64,000 nt of DNA, from NCBI GenBank assembly GCA_030581615.1, contig JAKTTT010000003.1, positions 557,451-621,450 of the forward strand, read 5' to 3'. Positions 9,838 through 60,242 of the stretch are shown piece by piece; position 1 is the stretch's first letter; every line of letters begins with the position of its first letter. The notes below the pieces were generated by a model. That model searched no databases and had not been told where the DNA came from. It saw only the letters and a program-made list of their open reading frames with translations. This DNA is from Alloascoidea africana (taxonomy: Eukaryota; Ascomycota; Alloascoideomycetes; Alloascoideales; Alloascoideaceae). The translations under genes were made by a program, and so were the position numbers.

Positions 9838-10623
9838 ATGACGCGAAGCAGTCTATCTGAAGAAGACAGAGCAGCTGCACTGGTATGTCAAGCTTTGGGC
9901 TCGTGCTTTTGTGGGGTTTCTAACATTTTTGCTACCATCCCCAAGAGACTGAAATCTGCGATATGGTTTACGGTAGCCAAAGTTGTACAGGAAGAAACAA
10001 CTGTTTTACAATCAAATGCTACACCTCAATTTATTTCAAATCTAACAGAATTGGTTTACAACCAAGCTCGTATGCCAATCAATAAGCGGAAACATTTATC
10101 AAACCATGCTCTAACTAGATCTAATAGTTACTCTTGGCGAGGATCTGGAACTTTTCGCCCAGTGAGTTAATCAGTCTATCACTCCTTTCAGTTACGCGCG
10201 TGAATACTAATAGATATAAACAGCCATGCTAAACGGAAAACGGTTCAGAAGGAGGACGTTCTGATGGTCTGCCGGCGGAACGAAAGCTTAAAAGAAGCAA
10301 TTGCAGAGTTCGGGAACCAAATCCAGGGACAGAAGCAGGAAAAATCAACTACAAGTACATCAAAGGCAAAATCTAAGCACAAGAACAAAAGCAAAACGAT
10401 AGAGTCAAGGGGAAAGAAAATGAAACAGAAACAACTTGTTCCAGTTCCTAAGAATAAAGAAAACGACGATGAAGGCGGAGTAATAGATGATGATGACATT
10501 GAAGAAATAGAAAACTCAAACAGTTATGACAGTGAAGATGAGTTTGACAAGCTGGATCTTGACCTCGATGAGGAGGAGGCTGACCTGATCAAACCTAGAA
10601 ACCGGCCTAATTTACGGAGTTGA
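9838..10623 (+). CDS. MHF1: CENP-S/Mhf1 histone-fold protein, 4 exons
   Basis: Histone-fold partner of Mhf2/CENP-X, in the FANCM/Mph1 DNA-remodelling complex and at inner kinetochores. Exons: 9838-9882, 9946-10069, 10128-10161, 10224-10623; 200 codons. Introns of 63, 58 and 62 nt start GTATGT, GTATGC and GTGAGT, each with a CTAAC/CTAAT branch point. The spliced protein runs through the family blocks RLKSAIWFTVAKVV, TPQFISNLTELVYNQ, the short exon 3 giving DLELFA, HAKRKTV and DVLMVCRRNESLKEAI. A long Lys-rich then acidic tail (KSKHKNKSK, DDDDIEEIEN) follows the fold. No single exon shows the fold on its own. Confidence 0.9.
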
Positions 10624-44885: not shown

Positions 44886-45798
44886 CTACCAAAAATCATC
44901 CTCGTAATCTTCATCTCGATACTGATTGTTCGAAGCTCGTATATTCTCCTCGGTGAATAGATCGTCATAAGCATGCTCCAACTTTAACTTTTCCTGTCTC
45001 TTGTCTTCTTCCAGCTTGGCAGATTTGTTTTGTAATGCCCTCTGTTTTGATTTTTGAATATCCGTTTGGTGCCTCGTATGGTCAAGCTTGAGCTTGCTTA
45101 GATCTGGATATTCTTCTTTTTTTGTCTTTTTCAAACGGTTCACAATTGCATTGATTCGTGTCTCGATAAAAATCTTCTTCACTAGCTTTTCCTTTTTAAA
45201 CCCAACTTGCCCCGTTTGCATTCCTTTCGTCTTTCGCAAATTCGACCATGGGGTGTAAATTACTGTGATATTGTCTCTTTTGTTTCCTTCTATGGAATTA
45301 GCCTTGGTAAGTTGAGCGCAATCTAAAGCCTGTTAGCGATTTTTCTTGATATTCCATAAGCATTTGAGTTCGGCCTACCGATCAAAACTTCTTCTGGTAT
45401 ATTTTCCCAGTCTTCTCCTTCTCTCAAACGTAGATACACATGAGCTGAACTCAGATTATCAACGTGGAACTAGGTTTTCGGATTAGTTGATGAGAATTGA
45501 AACACAAAGAACAGATAGATCATACCCTACAATATATTCTGGTCAGACACAGTTATAAATGAGGTATATAACACAGGCATACTCACCAAACATCTTCATT
45601 CCATCCATACTTGATCAAAGTTTCATCTTTCGGTTAAATTCAGCAAAGCATTAGAGATTGATTCATCCTCTCACAGCATGCCCCTTACTGATCTTCAGTT
45701 TAAAAAAACATACTTTCTTCTTTATGCTTTCCCATATATATTAACCTGGGAGGATCAATAGTTCCAGAGGTCCCTCTCGACTCGAAATAGTAAACCAT
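44886..45798 (-). CDS. JLP2: Jlp2/CCDC25 family protein (NFACT-R domain), apparently with a 1-nt exon
   Basis: Small protein of the CCDC25/DUF814 family, related to the NFACT-R part of Rqc2; role in yeast unknown. Exons (reverse strand): 45798-45714, 45626-45587, 45526 (one base), 45469-45379, 45322-44886; 217 codons (human CCDC25 is about 208). The start MVYYFESRG, then [24 protein letters not shown], then [18 protein letters not shown] and [14 protein letters not shown] are the family blocks in order, followed by a charged coiled coil. Between GATGTTTG and TTCCAC the frame needs exactly one extra G. A G flanked by TTGTAG and GTATGA supplies it, giving introns of 60 and 56 nt with CTGAC and CTAAT branch points. 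Other introns are 87 and 56 nt. Family call is firm; the micro-exon is inference. Confidence 0.9.
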
Positions 45799-57666: not shown

Positions 57667-58703
57667 ATGGCTATTAGTTATTCCGTTGAAGAGCTGGTTT
57701 CGGTTGCTGAGACAGGCTTTGTTGTCCCCAAGTTCATTGCTGTTCCCTACCTACAATATGTGTTTGGCACAAAAGCACCGGACACTGTGATCACTTCCAT
57801 GTATGTGTCCGATGAATCAAACCACGCGACCACTCTGAGCGGATAAGAGAACTGACCTGTCTTTATTACTAGCGCTATTGAGCCCACTATAAATGCTAAA
57901 AACGAAGAGGAGGAAAGTACGGAGAAGCCAAACGACACAGAGGAGGTTGGCGATCCGACTGAGTCAAAGGAGGAGCCAGTGGATGAAAACGCAATTGGCT
58001 CCTCTCCAGATGAGGACGAAAACGACTCGGACGCTGATGTTGATCTAGCAGAGTTGACGAGCCGTTATGGAACCTTTGTTAAGACTACAAGAAGGGCTTC
58101 TCGGTCGAAAGATATTGGAGGTGAGTGTGAATTTTCATTTTTGTCCGGGATCTTTTTCCCTAACAATGAAACTTTGTAGACTTCAATGCTCGCGTCCTTG
58201 CTTCAATGTCACATGGAAAATCTTCAATTGGCCAAGACAAAAGTCAGCGAAGCGATTGGAATGATAGTGATGATGAAGACGATGAGAACTCGTCACAACT
58301 GCAGCGTATACAGCTGATCCGGTCCCTAATGCAAAACGTTCTGAACCCACCCGAGCCCTACTTCAGAAGACACGACGAAGACTCTGGACATTTCCATCAT
58401 CAATCTCATCATAACCATCACGCACAGCATGGTGGTCACTACAACCACTCTCATCACGATAATCAGCAGCATCAACAGCCACAGCAACAGCCGGCTCATC
58501 CTCAACCAGAGACAGATGGAGACGGTTGGACCAGCGTTCCTAGTAGGCACGGAAGAAAGAGTTTTGGGGGCGAAGATGGATATCATGCAAGAAGAGGTTT
58601 CCGTGATGGCCTAAGAGGTGGTTATAGATCGAGAGGTAGAGGCGGGAATGGAAGCGGCCCTCGGAGGCCAAATCAGAATGTTTTTGCTGGCAGCGCCAAA
58701 TAA
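57667..58703 (+). CDS. CAF20: CAF20-like eIF4E-binding protein, 3 exons
   Basis: Likely competes with eIF4G for eIF4E and represses cap-dependent translation. Exons 57667-57800, 57873-58120, 58180-58703; 301 codons. Introns are 72 and 59 nt (GTATGT with CTGAC; GTGAGT with CTAAC). The N-terminus has YSVEELV at residues 5-11, fitting the YxxxxL-hydrophobic eIF4E-binding motif at the same place as in baker's-yeast Caf20. Further along come an acidic region, TRRASRSKDIGDFNARVLASM across intron 2, a His/Gln-rich tract (about 58,390-58,500), and DGWTSVPSRHGRKSFGGED, which resembles the Caf20 DGW motif. An Arg/Gly-rich tail (RGGYRSRGRGGNG) suggests RNA contact. Larger than baker's-yeast Caf20 (161); Eap1-like is the alternative. 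Confidence 0.72.
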
Positions 58704-59661: not shown

Positions 59662-59969
59662 ATTGTCAATACAAGGCATTTTGTCGGTCTAAGTAGATGA
59701 GAAATTTTCCATCGGACAGTGCCTTGTTGTCTGCCTTGTTCTTTATAGTCTCTCCAACCTCAAAGTGCTTCTCTAAGGCTCCTTCTTGTTGAAGGTACTC
59801 TCCAGTTGTTTGTTGCTTTTTGAAGAGATCTTCAACCAAACGTCTGACTTTCTTTTTCTTCAACTGTACCACTCTTTCTGGAAAACAACTCTCGCTTGTC
59901 TGGGGACATAGCTTGAGTTTTCTACCGCGGATTATATCTAGTGAAATGAAATACAGCGTTAATCACATG

Positions 59970-60242
59970 TTAGGGAAAACATATGACCAATTCCATATCT
60001 TTGTTAAAAAGTTGATTCAATTCTTCCAAAAGTAGGCCAGGGTTGGCGTCAACAGCTTTTAAACGGTTGCACAAATTACTAAAGTTATTGCCAGTTACTT
60101 GAAGAAATCTTCTCAAAGCACCAACTGCTGAGTTTCTCGATCTGTTAAAGTAGCAGATGATAAAACCGAATTCGCTTAAATATTCGAGCCACCTCTCCAA
60201 TTTTCCCAAAGGACTATCATTTGGTGTTTTCAAATATACCAT
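59970..60242 (-). pseudogene. Ty3/gypsy pol relic (end of RNase H)
   Basis: Reverse-strand open fragment whose first third carries LKTPNDSPLGKLERWLEYLSEF followed by the degenerate equivalent of the ADALSRF block (SAVGALRRF). This is the end of the RNase H domain of gypsy-type pol. It ends in a stop, and only unrecognisable or broken frames follow on either side (including 59,872-59,666). It points opposite to the LTR and PBS at 59,467-59,661, so the element is rearranged. Fragment of pol, not functional. Confidence 0.65.

Follow-up and report, generated by a model that had tools for sequence, protein, structure and literature searches.

A candidate single-nucleotide exon in the protein-coding JLP2/CCDC25 gene of the budding yeast Alloascoidea africana

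Two complete U2-type introns of 60 and 56 nt very probably flank an exon of one nucleotide, a G at position 45526, in the JLP2/CCDC25 gene of A. africana. All coordinates refer to the window, the whole 64,000-nucleotide stretch of DNA analysed, and the gene lies on its minus strand. This one-nucleotide exon was proposed in a first-pass annotation of the DNA, an interpretation that our analysis supports. The DNA establishes the sequence at this site, the reading frame and the lack of any other solution that preserves the conserved residues; it also shows how rare the pattern is and how well both introns fit the local intron size.

The gene had been assigned to JLP2/CCDC25 from the sequence, and database comparison bore this out. 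The spliced product aligned over residues 1-187 of 217 with a CCDC25 chain in the PDB, which we take to be the human protein (E 9.2e-57), and this alignment was free of gaps from residue 16 to well beyond the region of W42 and F43. The product also matched the NFACT-R_1 domain (Pfam PF05670; E 1.6e-33). The domain and the similarity over most of the length place the product in the JLP2/CCDC25 family, and JLP2 is presumably the appropriate gene label. The spliced model has the following features:

45798-44886, minus strand: JLP2/CCDC25 orthologue (spliced model, translation, NFACT-R_1 domain, CCDC25 alignment)
45714-45798, minus strand: exon 1, 85 nt (spliced model, translation, CCDC25 alignment)
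45627-45713, minus strand: intron 1, 87 nt, GTATGT...GAAAG (model; gapless CCDC25 alignment over the junction)
45587-45626, minus strand: exon 2, 40 nt, 3' end GTTTG (sequence, model, CCDC25 alignment)
45527-45586, minus strand: intron 2, 60 nt, GTGAGT...TTGTAG, with CTGAC 15 nt before the AG (spliced model)
45526, minus strand: proposed single-nucleotide exon G (sole workable one of five frame-restoring inserts; pattern rarity)
45470-45525, minus strand: intron 3, 56 nt, GTATGA...CCTAG, with CTAAT 12 nt before the AG (spliced model)
45379-45469, minus strand: exon 4, 91 nt, 5' end TTC (Phe43) (model, CCDC25 alignment)
45323-45378, minus strand: last intron, 56 nt, GTAGGC...TTTAG, with CTAAC 9 nt from the end (model; gapless alignment over the junction)
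44886-45322, minus strand: exon 5 including the stop codon, 437 nt (spliced model)

The case for the extra base begins with the reading frame. Exon 2 ends in GTTTG immediately before GTGAGT (donor at 45586), and the next coding block opens with TTC (45469) immediately after CCTAG, both as first annotated. The end of exon 2 supplies the TG of the Trp42 codon, for which the proposed exon G would be the third base. The requirement for W next to F at this point was upheld by the CCDC25 alignment, in which EDVWFHVDN and EDIWFHVDK face each other without a gap. Removal of the 117-nt interval as one intron loses the frame, as had been argued: GTTTG joined straight to TTC is read as DVCSTLII-stop, giving a 47-residue product. 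The predicted G is present at 45526, and the minus-strand sequence TTGTAG-G-GTATGA (45532-45520) places an AG directly 5' and a GT directly 3' of this one base. Inclusion of the G restores the conserved motif, and the resulting coding sequence is in frame, with 654 nt including the stop codon (the multiple of three originally counted) and 217 amino acids. We then kept the outer splice sites fixed and collected all stretches within the 117 nt that follow an AG, precede a GT and have a length of 3n+1. Five such inserts were found: three entailed a first intron only 5 nt long, another (13 nt) carried an in-frame stop, and the fifth was the single G, the only one with workable introns (60 + 56 nt) and no stop. 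The only GT-AG solution found that preserves the conserved VWFHVDNLS would thus be a one-nucleotide exon, and the sequence supports this reading.

To judge the size and splice sites of the two flanking introns we assembled a local reference set. The window held 486 candidate introns, 44 of which passed a filter of 40-130 nt that excluded longer introns. Seventeen introns were modelled in 13 genes and 12 of these were retained; four (43908-43857, 57186-57103, 57801-57872 and 4981-4909; 52-84 nt) were dropped as uncertain, and the intron modelled at 10162-10248 was swapped for two placed by eye. One further MOB2 intron was likewise placed by eye, and inclusion of the first and last introns of JLP2 brought the final set to 17. 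Alignments with a solved homologue, free of gaps over the junction, were available for 6 of the 17 (ORM1, BRX1, NDUFA6, the first MOB2 intron, and the first and last JLP2 introns), and the other 11 are ORF-bridging models. Splice-site matrices were built from 15 introns, with JLP2 excluded. The genome has the look of an intron-rich budding-yeast relative. The BRX1 protein from the window scored 374.7 bits against the best BRX1 in the PDB (21 entries); its scores with 8i9p and 8esq were 302.1 and 287.8. The MOB2 protein matches the CBK1 activator MOB2, and the presence of a gene for the NDUFA6/NB4M subunit suggests that complex I is retained.

Several features of the window were noted in passing. 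A predicted gene at 10070-10223, which we take to resemble the histone-fold protein MHF1/CENP-S, seems to have, at 10128-10161, an exon of 34 nt flanked by introns of 58 and 62 nt. Minus-strand ORF fragments at 59666-60242 gave the impression, in translation, of a decayed retrotransposon reverse transcriptase/RNase H. A tRNA scan found no tRNA. Intron 1 of JLP2 ends in GAAAG, an unusual AAG acceptor whose score of -1.8 lies below all 15 reference acceptors; the CCDC25 alignment runs over it without a gap. At 87 nt, this intron ties for the largest of the 17 collected.

The collected introns measured 53-87 nt (n=17, median 61), so that the expectation of two introns of usual local size, 60 nt (45586-45527) and 56 nt (45525-45470), held. 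Since the 17 span only 53-87 nt in a list filtered at 130 nt, a 117-nt intron would be an outlier. Each of the two introns also has its own branch point at the short distance from the AG given above, as had been noticed. Reference scores ranged from 6.2 to 9.3 for donors and from 2.3 to 6.8 for acceptors (15 introns), and both sites of intron 2 fell within these ranges (donor GTGAGT 7.9, acceptor TGTAG 5.7). The inner sites had both been called good; the intron 3 donor GTATGA, at 5.5, scored below all 15 reference donors. The intron 3 acceptor CCTAG (3.25) scored below 14 of the 15 reference acceptors. The size, donor, branch point and acceptor of both flanking introns are workable, though the sites of the second score low.

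A single ordinary GT-AG intron that stays in frame by dropping conserved residues would need no tiny exon. Across exon 2, the interval and exon 4 we tested 163 pairings of a GT with an AG that give introns of at least 30 nt, and four were in frame and open. However, all four partly delete the conserved CCDC25 stretch. Pairing GTTTGG with CCTAG (122 nt) loses V41 and W42, pairing GTGAGT with CTGAG (137 nt) loses WFHVDNLS and gains a Cys, and the two that start at the donor GTATGG make longer introns and lose more residues. Their sites are also poor: the donors GTTTGG (1.4) and GTATGG (5.8) lie under the whole range of the 15 reference donors, as do the acceptors CTGAG (-0.75) and TTGAG (1.7) with respect to the 15 reference acceptors. 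These alternatives would in addition leave the central AG-G-GT core without explanation, and we regard a single intron of this kind as extremely unlikely.

A non-canonical cut could keep the conserved residues. Only two ways of producing TGG-TTC in one step could be written, a TG-AG intron cut past GTTTGG and a GT-TA intron cut before the final G of CCTAG; to our knowledge, neither is a usual spliceosomal class. In each case a good GT donor or AG acceptor lies one base away from the cut, and the core and its branch point would again go unexplained, which makes this explanation very unlikely.

The frequency with which the core and its splice elements arise by chance was estimated from the interval, dinucleotide-shuffled 20,000 times, and from sliding 117-nt stretches on both strands of the 64-kb window. 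AG-G-GT with both introns of 50-90 nt appeared in 42 of the 20,000 shuffles; when the acceptor also had to be YAG and the donor GT[AG][AGT]G, one remained, and none did once a CTRAY branch point was required in addition. The full pattern was found in 34 of 127,766 sliding stretches, that is, at two sites with 17 stretches each, one being the 45526 site itself, without which the frequency is about 1.3e-4 of 117-nt stretches. Counted as sites on both strands of the 64 kb, YAG-G-GT[AG][AGT]G occurs three times, twice with CTRAY upstream. This rarity is a property of the complete set of splice elements, because the core alone is commoner: bare AG-G-GT was present in 1,066 of the 127,766 stretches, and AG and GT around any one base, with both introns 40 nt or longer, in 13,956. 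The central site is poorly explained by chance.

The main rival is an error of sequencing or assembly, in which the record lacks one G directly ahead of either GTGAGT or TTC and the interval is a single ordinary intron of 117 nt. At each junction a G stands beside the missing base, and loss of one base from a short run would yield exactly such a record. The error rate is also loosely bounded by the window: 16 ORFs of at least 300 amino acids (35,745 nt) are open, and the rule-of-three limit of 8.4e-5 per nt that they provide is not a fair bound since these ORFs were selected for being open. Against this, the error would have to strike one of two exact spots and coincide with an independent, chance-made acceptor-G-donor arrangement with a branch point (seen in 0 of the 20,000 shuffles), and the resulting intron would be longer than all 17 collected. 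With the prior for a one-base exon guessed at ~1e-5 per intron, ~8e-5 for an error at either of two places and ~1e-4 to 4e-4 for the coincidence, the exon would be favoured over an error by very roughly two orders of magnitude; these priors are guesses, and the confidence we state is lower. We consider such an error unlikely.

A real deletion is a related idea. If one base had truly been lost, the gene could be a pseudogene or null allele with an AG-G-GT core that arose by chance or is partly used, and the low scores at the splice sites of the second intron would agree with this. However, the remaining coding blocks keep an open frame and are conserved relative to CCDC25, at the alignment strength given above, and the deletion would have had to land exactly on a splice junction and coincide with a rare core. 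The probability that the gene is broken in this way is accordingly minimal.

We return to two introns around a one-nucleotide exon as the best reading, and infer from the sequence that the transcript would be spliced by this scheme. The acceptor TAG/G and the donor G/GTATGA overlap, and simultaneous recognition of both introns is unlikely. Because the first acceptor and the second donor share the same few bases, introns 2 and 3 are probably removed sequentially through intron definition, the general mode of recognition behind this expectation. Either order would be workable: if the second intron left first, the legal acceptor junction TTGTAG/GTTCC would be formed, and if the first left first, the legal donor junction GTTTGG/GTATGA. 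The partly spliced intermediates predicted, one for each order, are TTGTAGGTTCC or GTTTGGGTATGA. Pairing of the outer sites, GTGAGT to CCTAG, would bypass the G, which counts against the two-intron reading. If the exon is real, such skipping of 117 nt, with its 47-residue product, may represent a regulatory off state.

Packing of two introns at one spot, with probable sequential removal, recalls a stwintron, an external intron with its donor, branch point or acceptor split by an internal one, and complex introns at one position have been published from the yeast Lipomyces (PMC7138796). In JLP2/CCDC25, however, no splice element is split: GTATGA and TTGTAG are whole and lie one base apart. A stwintron in the strict sense is ruled out by this anatomy, and its probability is negligible.

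Both halves of the interval are complete and of normal size, and for this reason we weakly favour an origin in which one intron was gained next to an older one, with a single base between them. Nelson and Syed propose a different route, the loss of a base followed by adoption of a cryptic AGGGT (PMC12940212). Tandem duplication is not supported as the source of introns 2 and 3: the two lack mutual similarity, their alignment score being matched or beaten by 379 of 500 shuffled comparisons. Elsewhere in the window, the best match to the 117-nt interval covered 19 bases (E 0.067).

Homologues were also sought outside the window. Searches with the spliced protein gave 14 pattern matches in viral_contigs and 74 in genome_contigs, with no confirmed orthologue in either. 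A degenerate DNA pattern for D-x-WFHVD had no match in viral_contigs and one in genome_contigs, at positions 7541-7600 of contig L001. This match, QDLIKYGLPHDVWFHVDNLS, resembles part of a CCDC25 gene from a eukaryote and lies at the terminus of a metagenome contig from a bacterium (Schlesneria), where it follows an ORF that is presumably HslU-like. The contig end is probably an assembly chimera. Since the contig is bacterial and its last bases look chimeric, it is uninformative on intron structure.

The first-pass annotation had regarded one-nucleotide exons as known from a plant gene and from no budding yeast. The plant case is correct (APC11), but VPS55, Fusarium CYP621A and non-coding exons of Candida-clade budding yeasts are also described. 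For budding yeasts the statement therefore fails for non-coding exons, which have been published (PMC5033589), and stands for protein-coding ones, none of which is reported in the open-access papers examined. A search of PMC5639578 for mention of a one-nucleotide exon gave no hit. One-base spliceosomal exons are thus already documented, and the JLP2/CCDC25 exon would at most be the first protein-coding one in a budding yeast. That it is indeed the first, and that it arose by gain of a complete intron one base from another, is possible but doubtful.

If the exon is real, it would be a natural setting in which to study the removal, by a yeast spliceosome, of two introns that share splice-site bases. 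Few one-base exons were found in print and they are often missed by annotation, as a consequence of which genes that contain them are predicted to be truncated or falsely spliced. A protein-coding case in a yeast whose introns measure about 60 nt would provide a genetically simple system, with a protein as the read-out, in which both the minimum exon size and the removal order of introns that share inner sites could be tested. A second AG-G-GT case besides Fusarium would also fit the idea, expressed in PMC12940212, that G is favoured at such sites because it suits both splice consensuses.

One-base exons between two introns occur in mitochondria, in rnl of the Ophiostomatales strain WIN(M) 502 with its group II introns (PMC12308204) and reportedly in placozoan cox1 (PMC5436844), but these depend on a different splicing apparatus from that of JLP2/CCDC25. 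Some species' annotations also contain 1-bp exons that lack experimental support (PMC3064661). The Lipomyces complex introns resemble JLP2/CCDC25 in the packing of two U2 introns at one spot, and one form has two donor elements 1 nt apart and needs two splicing reactions (PMC7138796). Stwintrons have no exon between their units, whereas JLP2/CCDC25 would have one coding base between two complete introns; the arrangement is stwintron-like in the removal it would require and lies outside the stwintron definition.

Nuclear one-base exons in plants are known from APC11 and VPS55 (PMC8831610); in Arabidopsis APC11, an exon of one A within a 422-nt interval was supported by cDNA and reporter tests (PMC4674806). 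Like the JLP2/CCDC25 exon, they lie in conserved protein-coding genes and were overlooked by annotation, but they have been proved by cDNA, RNA-seq or reporter constructs whereas ours is predicted. Among budding yeasts, Candida parapsilosis, C. orthopsilosis and Lodderomyces elongisporus have single-base exons between introns that bear snoRNAs (PMC5033589). For the snR57-55-61 cluster, where this base is a G, the introns have been described as leaving one after the other, with support from RNA-seq (PMC5033589). These hosts share with JLP2/CCDC25 two spliceosomal introns one base apart, but their exons are non-protein-coding and so carry no reading frame, whereas the JLP2/CCDC25 exon would be coding.

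In Fusarium CYP621A, Nelson and Syed (2026) described an exon of one G within an AG-G-GT core, with 18 RNA reads, one of them noted as containing translated intron sequence (PMC12940212). Both CYP621A and JLP2/CCDC25 are nuclear protein-coding genes in which a G exon within AG-G-GT keeps, or would keep, a conserved motif in frame, and in both the apparent single intron is about twice the normal length (139 nt for CYP621A in F. graminearum). In CYP621A the exon stands in the middle of a Gly codon, whereas in JLP2/CCDC25 it would complete a Trp codon as its third base. The CYP621A exon is present in 20 named orthologues (the paper also says 24 genes), whereas that of JLP2/CCDC25 is a DNA-based prediction from one genome.
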